Assembly (NCBI RefSeq): GCF_028583425.1
Contig: NC_072805.1
Location: 17,370,001-17,434,000, forward strand
Length of the DNA: 64,000 nt
From: Eublepharis macularius
Taxonomy: Eukaryota; Chordata; Lepidosauria; Squamata; Eublepharidae
Direction of reading: 5' to 3'
Below the pieces are notes generated by a model. That model was not told where the DNA came from and made no database searches. It worked only from the letters and a program-made list of their open reading frames with translations. This document shows positions 4,905 to 47,335 of the stretch, piece by piece (the stretch's first letter is position 1; each line of letters begins with the position of its first letter). Position numbers and translations under genes: made by a program.

Positions 4905-5069
4905 GGAGGGGGCCGTGGTTCAAGGGCAGAACATCTGCTCGGTACCCAGATTCAACCCCCGGCAGCTCCAATTGAAAGGACCAGGCAGTAGACGATGTGA
5001 AAGACCTCTGCCTGAGCCCCTGGACAGCCAATGCCAGTCTGTGTAGACAAAACCAACCACGATAGACTG
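4905..5069 (+). repeat. tRNA-derived SINE, 5' part (split by a palindrome)
   Basis: It begins like a tRNA (GGCCGTGGTTCAAGGGCAGA) with a B-box-like GATTCAACCCCC. The body has GATGTGAAAGACCTCTGCC. It continues at 5272-5310 after a family B insertion. Confidence 0.75.
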
Positions 5070-5268
5070 ACAGCCAAGCTACAAGTGACAAATTACACTT
5101 GCCTGGCAAGTGAACAGACTCCTGTGTATTCCTCCCTGTTCACTTGCCATTCACTTGCACTCCTCTTGATCAAGTGGAGACCAAGTGAATGGCAAGTGAA
5201 CAGGGAGGAATACACGTGAGTCTGTTTACTTGCCAGGCAAGTGTAATTCGTCACTTGTAGCTTGGCTC
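5070..5268. mobile_element. Family B palindrome inserted in a SINE
   Basis: The palindrome ends are CAGCCAAGCTACAAG and CTTGTAGCTTGGCTC. The flanking 3-bp duplication is TGA at 5067-5069 and 5269-5271. The arms contain ACTTGCCTGGCAAGTGAACAG and its complement. Removing it and one TGA rejoins the SINE at 4905-5310. Confidence 0.85.
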
Positions 5269-5271
5269 TGA

Positions 5272-5310
5272 GGGTCTCATTCAATATAAGGCAGCTTCCT
5301 GTGTCCACAA
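5272..5310 (+). repeat. tRNA-derived SINE, 3' part
   Basis: It carries the family's 3' signature TTCAATATAAGGCAGCTTCC and continues the SINE at 4905-5069. Confidence 0.7.
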
Positions 5311-6116: not shown

Positions 6117-6288
6117 ATCGCTACAGGGTAGGATTACTAACAGCCCTTGAGAGAAATGTCCTGTCCCTTTAAAGTATAGAGATGGGTAGCTGAAGCTTTT
6201 CATGGCATTGAGTTCAATAACATCATCTGATAATAACATCCCACCCAGCCTCTATTAAAGGGACAGGCATTTCTTCTCCAGGCACTCA

Positions 6289-6498
6289 GAGCCAAGCTAC
6301 AAGTGACGAATTACACTTGCCTGGCAAGTGAACAGACTCACGTGTATTCCTCCCTGTTCACTTGCCCTCCACTTGCCCTCCACTTGATTACTACGTGATC
6401 AAGTGGAGCGCAAGTGGAGGGCAAGTGAACAGGGAGGAATACAAGGTCAGTCTGTTCACTTGCCAGGCAAGTGTAATTCGTCACTTGTAGCTTGGCTC
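6289..6498. mobile_element. Family B palindrome with TCA duplication
   Basis: The ends are GAGCCAAGCTACAAGTGACG and its inverted copy. The 3-bp duplication TCA is at 6286-6288 and 6499-6501. The centre is near 6395. Confidence 0.85.
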
Positions 6499-6867
6499 TC
6501 AGTAACCCTAGCACAAGTAATTTAGAATCCTCCACAGAACACACTGTAAATTAAACGGTGCATCCTGCCACTTTTTAAATATGCGCATGAACAAGGCTGT
6601 TTTTTGTCTTGTAATAGATGCTGCTCCCAAGATGCGTTCTGTCTCTCCCAGGTGGTGGTACCAAAGTCCTTGAAGACAACCTAACCAGTTACTGCATCCC
6701 ATCTGTGTGTTAGGGCGAAGAACAACCACAATATTTTTTTAAAAAATACACCCATCTTGATATCGGAATAGCAAGCCCTTTAACAGCAGATGAAAATGCA
6801 GGCCAATCCACTCATTTTGCTCTCAAAACAGAACTAGAGAAAGTGAAACCACTGACTTTGGTAACTT

Positions 6868-10798: not shown

Positions 10799-10916
10799 GG
10801 GCCAAGCTACACATGACGAATGACACTTGAACAGCAAGTGTATTTCTCCCTGTTCACTTGCCCTCCACTCAATCCACTTGCCGTTCAAGTGTCATTCGTC
10901 ATGTGTAGCTTGGCCC
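10799..10916. mobile_element. Family B palindrome, 118-bp subtype
   Basis: The ends are GGGCCAAGCTACACATGACG and the inverted CATGTGTAGCTTGGCCC. It has the same length and sequence subtype as the units of the 13779-16637 array. The flanks TCA and ATA do not match. Confidence 0.85.
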
Positions 10917-13617: not shown

Positions 13618-13778
13618 AATGACACATTTGAAATTGGTAGAAAGTTCTTTTTTAAACTGCTGATGTTTTCCTGAATGCAAGGACCAGTTTCTTTAGAGCA
13701 ATGAGAATGAAGTGCATTAGGAACCTTGACATAACCTGAAGCTAACAGTGCATAACATTCAATACAGTAATTACCTTA

Positions 13779-16637
13779 GGGCCAAGCTACACATGACGAA
13801 TGACACTTGAACGGCAAGTGTATTTCTCCCTGTTCACTTGCCCTCCACTCAATCCACTTGCCGTTCAAGTGTCATTTGTCATGTGTAGCTTGGCCCTTAG
13901 AGGCCTTGTTTGGCCTAACTCAGGGCCAAGCTACACTGGACGAATGACACTTGAATGGCAAGTGTATTTCTCCCTGTTCATTTGCCCTCCACTCAATCCA
14001 CTTGCCGTTCAAGTGTCATTCGTCATGTGTAGCTTGGCCCTTAGAGGCCTTGTTTGGCCTAACTCAGGGCCAAGCTACACAGGACGAATGACACTTGAAC
14101 GGCAAGTGTATCTCTCCCTGTTCACTTGCCCTCCACTCAATCCACTTGCCAGTTCAAGTGTCATTCGTCATGTGTAGCTTGGCCCTTAGAGGCCTTGTTT
14201 GGCCTAACTCAGGGCCAAGCTACACTGGACGAATGACACTTGAATGGCAAGTGTATTTCTCCCTGTTCATTTGCCCTCCACTCAATCCACTTGCTGTTCA
14301 AGTGTCATTCATCATGTGTAGCTTGGCCCTTAGAGGCCTTGTTTGGCCTTACTCAGGGCCAAGCTACACAGGACGAATGACACTTGAATGGCAAGTGTAT
14401 TTCTCCCTGTTCATTTGCCCTCCACTCAATCCACTTGCCGTTCAAGTGTCATTCGTCATGTGTAGCTTGGCCCTTAGAGGCCTTGTTTGGCCTAACTCAG
14501 GGCCAAGCTACACATGACGAATGACACTTGAACGGCAAGTGTATCTCTCCCTGTTCACTTGCCCTCCACTCAATCCACTTGCCGTTCAAGTGTCATTCGT
14601 CATGTGTAGCTTGGCCCTTAGAGGCCTTGTTTGGCCTAACTCAGGGCCAAGCTACACATGACGAATGACACTTGAACGGCAAGTGTATCTCTCCCTGTTC
14701 ACTTGCCCTCCACTCAATCCACTTGCCAGTTCAAGTGTCATTCGTCATGTGTAGCTTGGCCCTTAGAGGCCTTGTTTGGCCTTACTCAGGGCCAAGCTAC
14801 ACAGGACGAATGACACTTGAATGGCAAGTGTATTTCTCCCTGTTCATTTGCCCTCCACTCAATCCACTTGCCGTTCAAGTGTCATTCGTCATGTGTAGCT
14901 TGGCCCTTAGAGGCCTTGTTTGGCCTAACTCAGGGCCAAGCTACACATGACGAATGACACTTGAACGGCAAGTGTATCTCTCCCTGTTCACTTGCCCTCC
15001 ACTCAATCCACTTGCCAGTTCAAGTGTCATTCGTCATGTGTAGCTTGGCCCTTAGAGGCCTTGTTTGGCCTAACTCAGGGCCAAGCTACACTGGACGAAT
15101 GACACTTGAATGGCAAGTGTATTTCTCCCTGTTCATTTGCCCTCCACTCAATCCACTTGCCAGTTCAAGTGTCATTCGTCATGTGTAGCTTGGCCCTTAG
15201 AGGCCTTGTTTGGCCTAACTCAGGGCCAAGCTACACTGGACGAATGACACTTGAATGGCAAGTGTATTTCTCCCTGTTCATTTGCCCTCCACTCAATCCA
15301 CTTGCTGTTCAAGTGTCATTCATCATGTGTAGCTTGGCCCTTAGAGGCCTTGTTTGGCCTTACTCAGGGCCAAGCTACACAGGACGAATGACACTTGAAT
15401 GGCAAGTGTATTTCTCCCTGTTCATTTGCCCTCCACTCAATCCACTTGCCGTTCAAGTGTCATTCGTCATGTGTAGCTTGGCCCTTAGAGGCCTTGTTTG
15501 GCCTAACTCAGGGCCAAGCTACACTGGACGAATGACACTTGAATGGCAAGTGTATTTCTCCCTGTTCATTTGCCCTCCACTCAATCCACTTGCTGTTCAA
15601 GTGTCATTCATCATGTGTAGCTTGGCCCTTAGAGGCCTTGTTTGGCCTTACTCAGGGCCAAGCTACACAGGACGAATGACACTTGAATGGCAAGTGTATT
15701 TCTCCCTGTTCATTTGCCCTCCACTCAATCCACTTGCCGTTCAAGTGTCATTCGTCATGTGTAGCTTGGCCCTTAGAGGCCTTGTTTGGCCTAACTCAGG
15801 GCCAAGCTACACATGACGAATGACACTTGAATGGCAAGTGTATTTCTCCCTGTTCACTTTCCCTCCACTCAATCCACTTGCCGTTCAAGTGTCATTCGTC
15901 ATGTGTAGCTTGGCCCTTAGAGGCCTTGTTTTGCCTAACTCAGGGCCAAGCTACACTGGACGAATGACACTTGAATGGCAAGTGTATCTCTCCCTGTTCA
16001 CTTGCCCTCCACTCAATCCACTTGCCAGTTCAAGTGTCATTCGTCATGTGTAGCTTGGCCCTTAGAGGCCTTGTTTGGCCTAACTCAGGGCCAAGCTACA
16101 CAGGACGAATGACACTTGAATGGCAAGTGTATTTCTCCCTGTTCACTTGCCCTCCACTCAATCCACTTGCCGTTCAAGTGTCATTCGTCATGTGTAGCTT
16201 GGCCCTTAGAGGCCTTGTTTTGCCTAACTCAGGGCCAAGCTACACATGACGAATGACACTTGAACGGCAAGTGTATTTCTCCCTGTTCACTTGCCCTCCA
16301 CTCAATCCACTTGCCGTTCAAGTGTCATTCGTCATGTGTAGCTTGGCCCTTAGAGGCCTTGTTTGGCCTAACTCAGGGCCAAGCTACACAGGACGAATGA
16401 CACTTGAATGGCAAGTGTATTTCTCCCTGTTCACTTGCCCTCCACTCAATCCACTTGCCGTTCAAGTGTCATTCGTCATGTGTAGCTTGGCCCTTAGAGG
16501 CCTTGTTTGGCCTAACTCAGGGCCAAGCTACACAGGACGAATGACACTTGAATGGCAAGTGTATTTCTCCCTGTTCACTTGCCCTCCACTCAATCCACTT
16601 GCCGTTCAAGTGTCATTCGTCATGTGTAGCTTGGCCC
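13779..16637. repeat. Satellite-like tandem array of 20 family B palindromes
   Basis: Twenty copies of a 118-119-bp palindrome (GGGCCAAGCTACAC to GTGTAGCTTGGCCC) begin at 13779, 13923, 14067, 14212, 14356, 14500, 14644, 14789, 14933, 15078, 15223, 15367, 15511, 15655, 15799, 15943, 16088, 16232, 16376 and 16520. A 26-bp spacer containing AGGCC-TTGTTT-GGCCT lies between copies, so the period is 144 bp. It is 145 bp where a copy carries one extra A in CCAGTTCA. The left flank of copy 1 is TTA, as is the base triplet after it. The flanks of copy 20 are TCA on both sides. Open frames of up to 236 codons arise only because the period is divisible by three. Confidence 0.95.
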
Positions 16638-16904
16638 TCAGCCCAATACACAACATTACCTGAGGATGATATCCTCCCTCTACCACAAACACATGTTAGT
16701 TGTGTGAGCAAAAGCGCAGCCATTTTTCTCTTAACATACAATTCTAAGCAGCTTGCATAGCCTTGAGCATGTAGCTACGCTTGAAATAGCTGAACCAGCA
16801 AGACAATAGCTGCAAGCAAGAACTAGTTTGAGCTAGAGAGATGAGAAGGAAAGTTCCACTGGGGCAGAGGAGCAGAAGGAGATGGGTGTTCCTCAGAACA
16901 GAGC

Positions 16905-26390: not shown

Positions 26391-26641
26391 CCCCTTTTTC
26401 AGCTCTACAACATCTTTTTTAGAGATACATTCCCAAAGCTTTACATGGGATTCCGAATGAGTCCTAAGGTGATTTTTGTGATCTTTTGTGGGAGTGCCTT
26501 CACAGCTAACAGATTCGAGTCAGATCGGGCCAGCATCTCTTTCCATGGGGAGAGAAATGAGATTAACAACTCAAACAGCATCCATACTGCTAGCAGGTAC
26601 TTCTGCTGGTGCACTGTAAAAGTTGGGGAGAGTCTGGCTCA

Positions 26642-26823
26642 GGGCCAAGCTACAAGTGATGAATGACACTTGAACGGCAAGTGAACAGACTCACGGGTAT
26701 TCCTCCCTGTTCACTTTCCCTCCACTTGATCGTGATCGAGTGGAGGGCAAGTGAACAGGGAAGAATACCCGTGAGTCTGTTCACTTGCCGTTCAAGTGTC
26801 ATTCATCACTTGTAGCTTGGCCC
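26642..26823. mobile_element. Family B palindrome with TCA duplication
   Basis: GGGCCAAGCTACAAGTGATG to CACTTGTAGCTTGGCCC. TCA lies at 26639-26641 and 26824-26826. The centre is at ATCGTGATCGA. Confidence 0.85.
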
Positions 26824-26826
26824 TCA

Positions 26827-31577: not shown

Positions 31578-31695
31578 GGGCCAAGCTACACATGACGAAT
31601 GACACTTGAACGGCAATTGGATTGAGTGGAGGGCAAGTGAACAGGGAGAAATACACTTGCCGTTCAAGTGTCATTCGTCATGTGTAGCTTGGCCC
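31578..31695. mobile_element. Family B palindrome, 118-bp subtype, with TGA duplication
   Basis: GGGCCAAGCTACACATGACG to the inverted terminus. TGA at 31575-31577 and 31696-31698 is the target duplication. It has the same subtype and length as the array units, in reverse orientation. Confidence 0.9.
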
Positions 31696-38860: not shown

Positions 38861-39058
38861 GAGCCAAGCTACAAGTGACGAATGACACTTGCCTGGCAAG
38901 TGAACAGACTCACGTGTATTCCTCCCTGTTCACTGGCCATTCACTTGCGCTCCACTTGATCAAGTGGAGCGCAAGTGAATGGCAAGTGAACAGGGAGGAA
39001 TATGTGTGAGTCTGTTCACTTGCCAGGTAAGTGTAATTTGTCACTTGTAGCTTGGCTC
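38861..39058. mobile_element. Family B palindrome with TAT duplication
   Basis: GAGCCAAGCTACAAGTGACG to CACTTGTAGCTTGGCTC. TAT lies at 38858-38860 and 39059-39061. It is in CYP2 intron 8, centred at CTTGATCAAG. Confidence 0.85.
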
Positions 39059-41881: not shown

Positions 41882-44800
41882 TCAAATTTCGGGGTTTATA
41901 ATCGCGTAGTGAGGTAGCTTAGAGATCAGCCATTCATTCTGAGATAAAAACTCCAGGAAAGGGTACCATTGTGCGTAAAATTGTGTAGGTTTGGAGGGGT
42001 TATGCAATGCTCGAATTCTGTCTGTTATTTTTTCCATCATAAGGTGGTCCCACACCACTCTATACCATATGTCAAGAATGGGAGGGAATCTCGATTTCCA
42101 CCTGAGTGCAATTGCGGTCTTTGCAGCTGCTAGGAGAGTTCTGACCAATGCCTTCCGCAGATGAGGAATATCTAGATCTCCCCAAAGATCCAAGAAAACA
42201 AGTCCCGGGCTTGGGGGTATCACATAAGTCGTGATACGGGAAATTTCCTGGAGAACCGCCTTCCAGAAGGCAGCAACACTTTTACACTCCCACCAGCAGT
42301 GCAGGAACGTACCCTGCTCCCCGCATTTTTTCCAGCAGAGTGGCGATCTGCTGGGATATATTTTCGCCAGCTTTTGGGGAGTGAGGTACCACCTGTGGAT
42401 AATCTTATAGGTTTGGAGGCGCACATTGATGACAGGGGAGTTAAGCAATGCAGATATCCAAACATGCTCTCTATCTTCTCGTGTGAGTTCTATCCCACAG
42501 TCCTGCTGCCATCTATTGAGTAGCGCTTCAGTGTTTAGTGGTTTGGAATCAAGCAGGACGAGGTATAGTTTTGACAAGAGACCTTTACGGTTAAATGAGT
42601 GGGAGTCCAGAAGTGCTTCAAATTTAGTTGTTGGTGTAGTCATTACGCTTTTTATATTCAATTCGTTCAGAAGATATCGCAGTTGCAGGTAGAAAAACCA
42701 GGGGACTTCCCTGCCTAGGTTGTTGTTCAAGTCTACTCTGCTTATAATACCATCCTTGGTGGCTATGTCCAACAACCTCAAGTCCCTCAGGTCATCCCAG
42801 GAGCGCAGTGCGGTTATATTATGCTGGCGAGGCATGCCCTTATGTGATGTGAGCACTGAAAAGCGGGATATGGCCGGAAGAAGGGATCGCTTATGTCTGT
42901 CCCAAAGCTTTAGCAGTGCAGCAAGGAACATATTTTGATATATGGAGGAAGGACGCAAACTTGGGGTAGACCAGAAAGTTTCTCGCAACGTTTTTGGCTG
43001 GGAAAAGGTGCCCACTATGTTTATCCAATCAGAGTGTCCAGAGGGGAGTAATATCTGGAGGATGTCTGACAATCTGGCTGCATCAGAATAGAGCCCTATG
43101 TTTGGGTAGTTAAAGCCCCCTGCTGTTTTAGGGGCGCACAAAACTTTGAAGGCAATCCTAGGGCGCTTATTCTGCCACAAGAATCGGTTTAATGCCGCCT
43201 GCCATTGGCTCAGAATTTTGCTAGGGATTTCAATCGGAATTGTTCTATACAAAAATGTCAATTTTGGGAGGACGAAGGATTTTATCAAATGGTATCTTTC
43301 ATACCATGCCAGGTTTTGCTTGTTCCATTTGAGCAGGAGGTGTTTAATTTCTTTCATCTTTTGGACGTGGTTTACCTGGAGTAGCTGGGCTGGGTTGGGA
43401 GGGATATTTATGCCCAGATATCGGAGGTGTGATTTGGCCCACTGGTATTCAAATTGCCGTTTTATGTCGCTACACGTCCCCTCTGGGAGATTCACTGATA
43501 GGATGGTGGATTTGGCTTGGTTTATCCTCAACCCCGATATACACCCAAAGTGAGCAAGAACAATTGCCAGAGCCTTTAGGGAAACAAGTGGGCACGTAAG
43601 AAACAGCAAGATGTCATCAGCGAATAAGCATATTTTGTAAGTACGTTTGTCTATTTCAATGCCTCGAATCCTTTCATCGGTTCTTATCTCCTCTGCTAAG
43701 GGCTCTATCGCGAGGGCGAAAAGGATGGGGGAAAGGGGACATCCTTGGCGCGTGCCTCGGTGTAGAGTGAAGGGATCGGACGCTAAGTCATTAAGTTTGA
43801 TTCTTGCCTTGGGGCCTGCGTATATCGCTTTAATTGTTTGTAGGAAGTTGGGGCCGAATTTCATGTGGGAAAGGAGCATCTGCAGGTACGGGGCCTCCAG
43901 GGTGTCGAAAGCTTTTTCGACATCCAAGGAGAGGAATGTGGTTTGTAATTTGTTGTGTCTACTGAATGTCAAAATGTTCAATGCCTTATAAATGTTGTCG
44001 GAGATGTCCCTATTGGGGATAAAGCCAATCTGATCCGTACAAATATAATTTCCAATGAAAGAATTGAAGCGTCGTGCATATAATGAGGTAAAGATTTTAT
44101 AATCGACATTCAGCAAAGAAATCGGTCTATACGAACCGGGGTTAGAGGGGTCTTTGCCTTCCTTGGGGATCATGGTGATGACTGCCTCAGCCCAGGTTCC
44201 AGGTAAGGTCCCCAATTTATGTACCTCATTACAGGCCAATAACAGGGGCGGGGTTAACACCAAAGCAAATTTTTTATAGAATTCGGCCGGATAGCCATCC
44301 GGCCCAGATGCCTTATTGCTCTTTAATTTCTTAATGGATTCCAGCAGTTCTGTAGCGGTGATTGGGGTATCCATTAATCGGCTGTGTTCCTCCGTCAATT
44401 TTTTAATGTTCTTATGGTTTGATAGGTAGCTTCTAATTGACACTTTATCTGGCCTGGATGAAGTATATAAATTTGTGTAAAATTTTGTGAATACATTCAA
44501 TATATCGGGAGATTTAGTGAGCGTTTGTCCCTTGTCGTTTTTTATGAGTCTGACGTGCCTATTTATTCTCTTCTCCTTGACCTTCCAGGACAGATAACGT
44601 AGGGTCCTAGGAGAGTGGTTCCAATACTTTTGTTTTAAATATAAGATGTTCCTTTGAATTTGGGACGTTTCAAGTGACTCCAGAGCTTTGCGCTCATGGA
44701 GCAGCTGTTTATAGGTTTTTTTGCTGCCTCTATCCTTGTGTAAGCGTTCCAATTGGTGGATTTTATCCATTATGAGTTGCTTTTGGAGTTTTTTCTTCTT

Positions 44801-45751
44801 ATTTAGCGAGGCAGAGAGAGCGATCAGTTGTCCCCTTAGTACCGCCTTAAGAGCGTCCCACACCGTTTGGGAAGATGTCGTGCCCGTTTGGTTATCTTTG
44901 AGATATTGGGCGATATCTCGTTCAATTTGTAGGACATTGTTCTCATTAAGTATGAGGTTTTTCTGAAACGTCCAATGCCTCTCCCTTTCGTAGGGCCTAT
45001 CTAGGGACAATTTGCACGTTACCCAAGCATGATCCGAATAGCTTATGTCTCCTATGCTGGAGAGTAACACTCTGTCTCTCAGATCTGGGGACACCAGGAT
45101 ATAGTCGATCCTGGTGTATACGTCGTGGCGTGGGGAGTAGTATGTGTAATCTTTGGCCAGTTTGTTCATCTCCCTCCATATGTCCAATAAGTGGAACCGA
45201 GTAAATAGCGTGAGCATCTGTGTGTCACGATTAGGGTTCTTAGGTCTTCTTGGCGCCCGAGGTGCATTGTTGAGGGGAAATGAGGATTTATCTAGGTCAT
45301 GGTGTGCTACATAATTGAAGTCCCCTCCCACAATTACTGATCCCTCCTGGAATGCTTCCAATTTTCGGAGAATTTCTTCCGTGAACTCCAGTTGCTGCGT
45401 GTTGGGCGCATAGACAGATGCCAGTGTAAGCAACTGTCCATTGAAGTGCCCCTTTATAAATAAGAACCTGCCTCTAGGGTCCCGTAGGGTGGCTTTGTGT
45501 TCAAATTGGACCCTGTTTGCTAGTAAGATTGCCACCCCGCGGGATTTGGAGGAGCCTTTTGCGTGGAATTGCAATTTTATCCATGGGGCCTTAAGCTCCG
45601 CCTCATAGGATGCATGGAGGTGTGTTTCTTGGATCAGGGCTACATCTACATTCAGTTTCGCCAGGCTGGTCAGAACTCTCCTTCTCTTCACCAGGTTGTT
45701 TAAACCCCTCACATTTTGCGAGACAATATGGACATGTGGTTGTGAGGCCAT
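41882..45751 (-). CDS. L1 ORF2 protein (endonuclease and reverse transcriptase)
   Basis: 1289 codons, uninterrupted. Residues 1-250 are an APE-type endonuclease: SQNVRGLN (11-18), Glu42 in IQETH, GGDFN (142-146), RIDYIL (214-219) and SDH (239-241). About 470-760 is the reverse transcriptase: SNKASGPDGYPAEFY (478-492), GSYRPISLLN, QIGFIPNR, RQGCPLSPILFA and the catalytic FADD (710-713). A C-terminal CX3CX7HX4C knuckle uses Cys1139, Cys1143, His1151 and Cys1156. All the catalytic residues I can check are present, so the copy may be retrotransposition-competent. That is an inference. Confidence 0.95.
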   Translation of the reverse strand: MASQPHVHIVSQNVRGLNNLVKRRRVLTSLAKLNVDVALIQETHLHASYEAELKAPWIKLQFHAKGSSKSRGVAILLANRVQFEHKATLRDPRGRFLFIKGHFNGQLLTLASVYAPNTQQLEFTEEILRKLEAFQEGSVIVGGDFNYVAHHDLDKSSFPLNNAPRAPRRPKNPNRDTQMLTLFTRFHLLDIWREMNKLAKDYTYYSPRHDVYTRIDYILVSPDLRDRVLLSSIGDISYSDHAWVTCKLSLDRPYERERHWTFQKNLILNENNVLQIERDIAQYLKDNQTGTTSSQTVWDALKAVLRGQLIALSASLNKKKKLQKQLIMDKIHQLERLHKDRGSKKTYKQLLHERKALESLETSQIQRNILYLKQKYWNHSPRTLRYLSWKVKEKRINRHVRLIKNDKGQTLTKSPDILNVFTKFYTNLYTSSRPDKVSIRSYLSNHKNIKKLTEEHSRLMDTPITATELLESIKKLKSNKASGPDGYPAEFYKKFALVLTPPLLLACNEVHKLGTLPGTWAEAVITMIPKEGKDPSNPGSYRPISLLNVDYKIFTSLYARRFNSFIGNYICTDQIGFIPNRDISDNIYKALNILTFSRHNKLQTTFLSLDVEKAFDTLEAPYLQMLLSHMKFGPNFLQTIKAIYAGPKARIKLNDLASDPFTLHRGTRQGCPLSPILFALAIEPLAEEIRTDERIRGIEIDKRTYKICLFADDILLFLTCPLVSLKALAIVLAHFGCISGLRINQAKSTILSVNLPEGTCSDIKRQFEYQWAKSHLRYLGINIPPNPAQLLQVNHVQKMKEIKHLLLKWNKQNLAWYERYHLIKSFVLPKLTFLYRTIPIEIPSKILSQWQAALNRFLWQNKRPRIAFKVLCAPKTAGGFNYPNIGLYSDAARLSDILQILLPSGHSDWINIVGTFSQPKTLRETFWSTPSLRPSSIYQNMFLAALLKLWDRHKRSLLPAISRFSVLTSHKGMPRQHNITALRSWDDLRDLRLLDIATKDGIISRVDLNNNLGREVPWFFYLQLRYLLNELNIKSVMTTPTTKFEALLDSHSFNRKGLLSKLYLVLLDSKPLNTEALLNRWQQDCGIELTREDREHVWISALLNSPVINVRLQTYKIIHRWYLTPQKLAKIYPSRSPLCWKKCGEQGTFLHCWWECKSVAAFWKAVLQEISRITTYVIPPSPGLVFLDLWGDLDIPHLRKALVRTLLAAAKTAIALRWKSRFPPILDIWYRVVWDHLMMEKITDRIRALHNPSKPTQFYAQWYPFLEFLSQNEWLISKLPHYAIINPEI

Positions 45752-47335
45752 TATAGAATGGGTAAAAGTAGAGTATCAGAATTGGCCTTTGAAGTGGAAT
45801 GTAATAGTATTGCAGAACCAAAGGTGCAAGTATAGAAATCGCTAGCAGTCGTGTAAGGGCTCTTGCCTCAGTAGTTTATAATAGATATGAATGAGATGGC
45901 TGAAATGATCTAAGCACCAAAGGAAGGGTCAATACGCAAATGCAATAAGATTCAGGTAAATAAATCACTGTCTGATGTTAATTAATTAAGCAATCAAATT
46001 TCATCACTTTGAAGGCAATCATGCAACAAATTCATTAGAAAGGAAAGAGAAATCGTATCACAAAACACAAATGCAATGAAATGTATAGCAAGCTTAAGTT
46101 AATCTACTATGTTGGTAAGTTTCAATAAATAATCAATCGACTTTCGCCCTTACCCTTTCAAAGTATGGTGAGAAGCAAGCAGACTGTCAGTGGGTAAAAC
46201 TGATAGTTGTGATAAGCTTGTAGTCTGCTATGCTACCTCCCCTCTCCGATTATGGATGGATCAAACTGCAATTAATTCCAGGTAAGCCAATCAAGTAAGT
46301 ACTAATTAATTAAGATTTCTTATTGTTATCGTATGTAGGAGTAGACCAAATTAATAGACGTACCTCTTAACCCCAAATCACTAAGTTGCTTGTAATCTGC
46401 TATGTTACCTTCTCTCTCTGATTATGGACGGATCAAACTGCAATTAATTCCAAGTGTACAAGTTGCTAATCAATCAAGAACCAATTAATTAAGATGTCTG
46501 TTTGTTACCTTATGGAGGAGTAGATTGAATTGATGGATGCACCTCTTAGCACTAAATCACTAATTTGCCTAACTACCTTAACAAAGTTATATACAATAAG
46601 CACGCAGCACTTTAATATAGTTTTTGGTAAAAGCTTGAAAGTGTAAATATATTCAATTAACTCACTACTTATACTCCTTTAAACCAACTGTCCCCAGACT
46701 TGTAATAAATGATTAATGAATTCTTGCCCTTACCTCTGCAAAATGCAGTAAGGAGCAAGCAGATAGTCAGTGGGTAAAACTGCAAGTTGTAATTGTTGTA
46801 TAGATTGCTTCGTTACCTCCCCCCCCTTACTAACGTCGGGTCAAGCTGCAATGAGTTCCGAGTATATGATATGCCAATCAAGAAGGTATTAATTAATTAA
46901 GATTTCTCTTTATTACTTTATGTAGAAGTGGATCAACTCAAGGGGCGCACCTCTTAATATTAAATCACTAACTTGCCTTAACTACCGTAACTAAACTATA
47001 TACAACGAGCACTCAGCGTCTTGTTACTTATTTTCCAGGAAGAACTTGAAGAGTGTATTTATATAATTATCACAAGATCTAATATTTCTCTAAAGCAACC
47101 GTCTCCAATAGAGAAATAGAAACTAAGGTGCTACACAGTCCTCAGCAGCCTCGCGAGAAATCTCTGCAACGAGGTTGCTGTAAATAAACAGAACGGAGGA
47201 CTGTTTGTGTAAGGGGCTAATAAAGAAGCAATCCCTTCAATCCCACCCCAACCACCCCTACCCGCGAGTAAATTAAGTAAGATTGGGACGTTCCAACACA
47301 ACATATTCTAGTCATAAGTCCTACCAGTCAGAGCT
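45752..47335 (-). repeat. L1 inter-ORF spacer with internal tandem repeats
   Basis: It is AT-rich and non-coding. The block around GGATCAAACTGCAATTAATT near 46257 recurs near 46430 and, more diverged, near 46846. A longer block (CCTTACC...GGAGCAAGCAGA...GTCAGTGGGTAAAACT) occurs at about 46145 and 46728. Confidence 0.7.

Follow-up and report, generated by a model that had tools for sequence, protein, structure and literature searches.

The double insertion of a transposable element as a substrate for satellite DNA was described by McGurk and Barbash (2018, Genome Research), as summarized in a review which also refers to the expansion of the Drosophila hobo element to 16 tandem copies (PMC12628747). 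The palindrome array analysed here is similar to the type described by McGurk and Barbash in that two neighbouring insertions of one transposon would have been followed by expansion through unequal exchange. It differs from that type, as presented in the review, in that its founders lie some bases apart with host DNA trapped between them as a spacer, in being built from a 118-bp palindrome, and in the survival of the empty host sequence in at least 40 paralogous copies (PMC12628747). Another related system is Tetris/TIR-220 of Drosophila virilis, where a non-autonomous DNA transposon of the foldback type has likewise produced tandem arrays of kilobase size; nevertheless, the Tetris unit is described as an internal tandem repeat of the terminal inverted repeats (TIRs), whereas the unit here is the whole element plus a host spacer (PMC4079207).

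MITE-derived repeats have been reported in several animals (PMC9659126). The Xenopus repeats Xstir (Hikosaka and Kawahara) and miDNA4 (Scalvenzi and Pollet) resemble the present case in the passage from a MITE to a tandem array, and the model proposed for Xstir likewise starts from two closely placed elements and includes the formation of hybrids; however, the Xenopus repeats lie within the MITE, and a host spacer between whole elements is not described in what these two sources present of them (PMC12628747, PMC9659126). The double-insertion route is already known and the present array works likewise, its distinguishing points being a spacer of host DNA, a unit that is palindromic and a complete record. 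Regarding the element itself, no description of the 118-bp palindrome family was found in the literature search.

The window, that is, the whole stretch of 64,000 nucleotides that was analysed, belongs to a genome of 2.24 Gb in 72 contigs, and its features are displayed in Table 1 together with two sister arrays. The original prediction proposed 20 head-to-tail copies of a palindrome with a fixed 26-bp spacer, and parsing of the array bore this out to the base: the 20 complete units measure 118-119 bp (15 of 118 bp and five of 119 bp), all of the spacers (19/19) are exactly 26 bp long, and the loop has the same orientation in 20/20 copies. The strong hairpins that had been anticipated were also recovered, as a single strand of the consensus forms one hairpin with an energy of -47.7 kcal/mol (DNA parameters) and 92 of its 118 positions coincide with its own reverse complement. 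The first 14 bases of the palindrome, GGGCCAAGCTACAC, occur 22 times in the window versus none in 50 mononucleotide shuffles.

Table 1. Position of the window, of its palindromes and host-repeat parts, and of two sister arrays (positions are those of the window unless a contig is given).
Feature	Position	Strand	Description
Window	C16:17370001-17434000		Within a 2.24-Gb genome of 72 contigs
Host dispersed repeat, left part	13699..13778	+	Ends in TTA (first target triplet); aligns at 97-99% to L069-L072 together with spacer and right flank
20-copy palindrome array	13779-16637		2.86 kb; 20 palindromes and 19 spacers, head to tail, as assembled
Palindrome copy 1	13779..13896	.	118 bp; TTA on both flanks; first founder insertion
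First of 19 spacers	13897..13922	+	26 bp, TTA + 20 bp + TCA; identical to host repeat
Copies 2-19 and intervening spacers	13923..16493	.	Each copy flanked by TCA left and TTA right
Palindrome copy 20	16520..16637	.	118 bp; TCA on both flanks; second founder insertion
Host repeat, right part	16638..16655	+	Starts with TCA (second target triplet); L069-L072 alignment ends between 16655 and 16663
Dispersed single palindrome	10799..10916	.	118 bp; TCA left, ATA right (triplets unequal)
Dispersed single palindrome	31578..31695	.	Loop in opposite orientation; TGA on both flanks
C12 array (L009)			10 copies, 31-bp spacer; two distinguishable founders
C6 array (L048/L108)	C6:3730723-3738982		60 copies, 8.26 kb, 138-bp period; 60/60 loops in one orientation

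Tandem Repeats Finder gives 97% matches (positions 13778-16638, period 144, 19.8 copies). The run had also been called homogeneous, which has to be qualified, as the 20 units represent 12 different sequences. Ten variable columns of the element are combined in a mosaic (shuffled) fashion across the units, which show a mean of 3.4 pairwise differences, and three versions of the spacer exist among the 19. In addition, a 433-bp period, equivalent to three units, slightly outscores the 144-bp one in Tandem Repeats Finder. Both the variant mosaic and the three-unit period fit multi-unit exchange.

Single copies had been placed at 10799 and 31578, and both are indeed present, each of 118 bp and 117/118 identical to array unit 18. 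The 118-bp element probably has larger relatives in the window, namely near-perfect palindromes of approximately 180-220 bp with related ends (5067-5272, 6284-6503, 26641-26824 and 38861-39058). Concerning coding sequences, a Pfam scan of eight of the 101 listed window ORFs gave a LINE ORF as the one convincing result, and two weak matches inside the array, one of them barely above the cut-off, were taken as chance. The LINE frame (41882-45775, minus strand) is 1297 codons long, contains the domains of an endonuclease and of a reverse transcriptase, and looks like an intact ORF2.

An empty-site query of 179 bases was assembled by joining the two flanks of the array through one of its spacers, omitting the palindromes and keeping one copy per triplet; it starts a few bases inside position 13699. 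The genome was searched with it, and 40 places were scored among 386 candidates. All of these best 40 of the 386 (40/40) are continuous over at least query positions 1-111 with identities of 92-99%, and each of them crosses both insertion points, located at query positions 73-75 and 96-98. Four of the 40 scored matches (L069-L072) are identical to the letter to the joined window over the spacer and both insertion points, the intact form of the host repeat being ..ATTACCTTAGAGG..CCTAACTCAGCCC... Because flanks and spacer match empty host copies continuously, the spacer is host DNA lying between two insertions. It consists of the two triplets and, between them, 20 bp from an older dispersed repeat, and not of transposon, and the array lies inside one copy of that repeat. 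This explains the fixed spacing, since the spacer is host sequence trapped between two independent insertions. The empty-site (host-repeat) test covers the window array only, and for this array the alignment settles the double insertion, with an empty host sequence and a separate target site, TTA or TCA, for each founder.

The flank triplets follow the same layout, as copy 1 has TTA on both sides, copy 20 has TCA on both sides, and the interior copies are hybrid, TCA preceding and TTA following the palindrome in 18/18. Both insertion points, their target triplets, the empty host sequence and these hybrid flanks are directly seen. A double insertion followed by unequal exchange is the best explanation of the window array, with a probability of about 0.92. 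According to it, a non-autonomous MITE-like palindromic DNA transposon of 118 bp, with a TNA-type 3-bp target duplication, would have inserted twice and independently, 23 bp apart, in one copy of the older repeat, once at TTA and once at TCA. The resulting palindrome-spacer-palindrome would provide two homologous blocks of 118 bp in direct orientation, and misaligned recombination between them would generate an interior copy whose left end comes from founder 2 and whose right end comes from founder 1. Unequal exchange is proposed for this step, and replication slippage or break repair would leave an equal trace in the sequence; repeated exchange, together with conversion and multi-unit duplication, could then have raised the number to 20 copies. 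For the window array, we infer the recombination pathway, the transposase and continuing growth.

At the few diagnostic columns of the element, the window array shows no clean division of its interior copies between a left part like copy 20 and a right part like copy 1, presumably due to later conversion. Recombination of the founders within the element itself is observed in a sister array, that of C12. Its copy 1 carries A-type ends (..ACACATGACG) on both sides and its copy 10 carries B-type ends (..ACAAGTGATG) on both sides, and the interior copies are of B type at the left and of A type at the right in 8/8 cases, copy 9 having one right-hand B-type base. In the same way, the middle copy of the three-copy array L051 matches copy 3 at its left end and copy 1 at its right end. 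L010, with five copies and a 189-bp spacer, has TGT on the left and TTA on the right of its interior copies (3/3) and TGT on both sides of the last one, but its first copy is flanked by the unequal pair TCA and TTA and departs from the flank pattern of the window.

A homogeneous run of fold-back DNA had been considered notable, but hairpin arrays do not prove to be exceptional in this genome: seven arrays with one repeated spacer (including that of the window) were read, with 20, 60, 10, 5, 4, 3 and 3 copies, and an eighth has alternating spacers. Loops are uniform in all seven one-spacer arrays (the window array, the C6 array, L009, L010, L049, L051 and L052) versus 12 of 19 doublets. They are not uniform, despite recurring spacers, in L053, where the spacers alternate (++++-), and in L050, where the spacer is flipped (-++). 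Of two consecutive spacers in L050 (C2:4231800-4233000), each is the reverse complement of the other, as though the stretch between two palindromes had turned round. The 60-copy array of C6 contains 59 spacers of 20 bp with the composition TTA-GGGCCC-TTA-GGCCC-TTA, which look like remnants of element ends or excised copies.

The expression "satellite in the making" used in the original prediction is appropriate, given that doublets and arrays of up to 60 copies form a series. What the prediction overlooked is that the unit is not the transposon alone, its spacer being host DNA. Satellite DNA in the strict sense forms very long heterochromatic arrays, and such lengths are not found here, where the largest array reaches 60 copies and 8.26 kb and that of the window 2.86 kb.

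These sister loci also bear on the explanations that compete with the double insertion. One of them is that a ready-made composite transposon, palindrome-spacer-palindrome, moved into the locus and was then expanded. Such arrivals seem to occur in this genome: L054 (C1:15422300-15423300) and L051 (C3:15435000-15436400) share a doublet, 98.9% identical over 266 bp including the 23-bp spacer, with no detectable similarity between their flanks, and the L054 doublet is bordered by TCA at either outer end, in the same orientation. L054 indicates that a doublet and its spacer can move as a composite transposon, and the C6 array, with TGA on both outer sides, could be read in the same way. In the window array, however, the spacer is the host repeat at that very place and the outer triplets differ (TTA and TCA), which makes the arrival of a composite very improbable there. 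On the other hand, the same or nearly the same doublet as in L051 is present in L055 (C5:166400000-166401000); the flanks of L051 and L055 are 69-77% similar and partly repetitive, and their palindrome loops are opposite.

Equally improbable is an assembly artefact, by which a doublet or a few copies would have been multiplied by the assembler. Near-identical repeats are certainly error-prone, but the distinct units (12/20), the order of the variants and the independent arrays with other lengths and spacers stand against it. The array structure is supported as real by variants tied to particular positions and by flanks and a spacer that are exactly continuous in the empty host copies, and the double insertion stands even if the assembled copy number were wrong.

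A single insertion followed by tandem duplication of the element with some flanking DNA would also yield a fixed element-plus-flank unit, and part of L049, with a 126-bp period and a repeated flank (aaatgccttac), looks so. In the window, this process predicts a spacer that runs on past the last copy and outer triplets from one insertion; instead, the outer triplets are TTA and TCA, and new host sequence follows copy 20 as in the empty copies, so the empty-site alignment leads to its rejection, with scarcely any probability left to it. The formation of a concatemer by rolling circle and the insertion of the ready array, as proposed for Helitrons, would produce uniform head-to-tail units but predicts neither a spacer of host DNA between the outermost triplets nor hybrid flanks, and has a negligible probability.

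The mobile origin of the array that had been proposed was confirmed on a genome-wide scale, where TNAGGGCCAAGCTACAC was found 10,052 and 10,140 times on the two strands, adding up to 20,192 exact TNA-flanked ends. If about 10,096 copies were evenly spread, around 1.4 junctions with 0-30 bp between triplets would be expected, and 0.05 at any single exact spacing. The junctions counted were 224 with 0-30 bp between triplets (6-36 bp between palindromes), 96 with 31-60 bp and 66 in which two palindromes share one TNA triplet, and the reversed-pattern controls gave 0. These counts refer to junctions, not loci, and include arrays (for example, 59 C6 spacers and 19 window spacers); moreover, the end sequences used for the 224 and 96 junctions were shorter than those behind the 20,192 ends. 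Copies are also regionally clumped, and for all these reasons the excess over an even spread overstates any attraction between them. Re-insertion into the target duplication shows most clearly in the peak at one shared triplet. Among the matches listed, doublets or copies are dense at approximately 11-37 Mb of C3 and 8.8-11.5 Mb of C1.

With respect to the target triplets, a 3-bp TNA was duplicated in 14 of 19 copies, a sample that is biased by having been picked by similarity including the flanks. On C1 (2.05-11.46 Mb, among the matches listed), 12 of 35 complete copies with TNA on both sides have unequal triplets, or 10 of 32 once three copies with a neighbour within about 60 bp are dropped. 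The triplets are equal in 23 of these 35 copies, preselected for TNA on both sides; shuffling gives an expectation of 11/35 and a largest value of 22 in 10,000 shuffles. Only 6/30 distinct runs of two or more copies (the 32 parsed runs minus L011, which lies inside L048, and L016, which does not differ from L015 in the cluster or in the adjoining 50 bp on each side) both begin and end with a copy whose two triplets are equal. Target duplications were dropped as proof by themselves because unequal triplets are frequent, and for the same reason the case is carried by the empty host copies and not by the triplets. For the unequal triplets, a "carried-over middle base" and collapsed doublets were considered, and the two are not separable on the sequence.

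The element shows the marks of a MITE, namely its 118-bp length, its self-complementarity and its many TNA-flanked ends. A 3-bp target duplication is characteristic of the PIF/Harbinger superfamily, and matches to PF13359 (DDE_Tnp_4) are abundant in the genome, where the best 150 of 1,334 candidates were scored. No TIR of the palindrome family was found at both ends of any of the 30 PF13359 loci within approximately 1.5 kb on each side (0/30), 27 of which are copies of one repeat whose termini lie beyond that range, nor in five PF13359 stretches of 4.0-4.5 kb. The similarity within the long repeat of these 27 loci continues to the ends of the examined sequence in nearly all of them, so the negative result neither places the element in a superfamily nor removes one. 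A one-sided TIR look-alike, GGTCCAAGCACCA, with a near form, is present in 28 of the 30 loci and was rejected, the exact form (n=27) being inside the long repeat and not at its end. Furthermore, many PF13359 (Harbinger-type) transposase genes of equal score, with open frames of about 502 or 781 codons, are found among L073-L102. As many as 26 of these loci align to one reference with 97.6-99.7% DNA identity, 24 of them over approximately 3.5 kb, which points to activity, or copying of another kind, in the recent past.

A broader reading, tentative and rather unlikely as a whole, is that palindromic elements are specially prone to this behaviour. Since any two palindromes can pair whichever way they face, insertions close to each other could grow, shrink to hybrid-flanked singles, flip their spacers and move as composites, and the unequal triplets of roughly a third of the listed copies would be the scars of collapsed doublets. 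If this were true, one MITE family would continuously create, disperse and erase micro-satellites carrying host DNA.

The route from transposon to satellite is usually inferred from end products. This one genome holds a series that comprises isolated copies, pairs with a triplet in common, pairs separated by host DNA, arrays of a few copies, and those of 20 and 60. For the window array, at least 40 empty paralogues show what the site looked like before insertion and, with the series in the same genome, the growth of the array could therefore be followed by comparing individuals. In the window array, an early step in the formation of satellite DNA is readable base by base.
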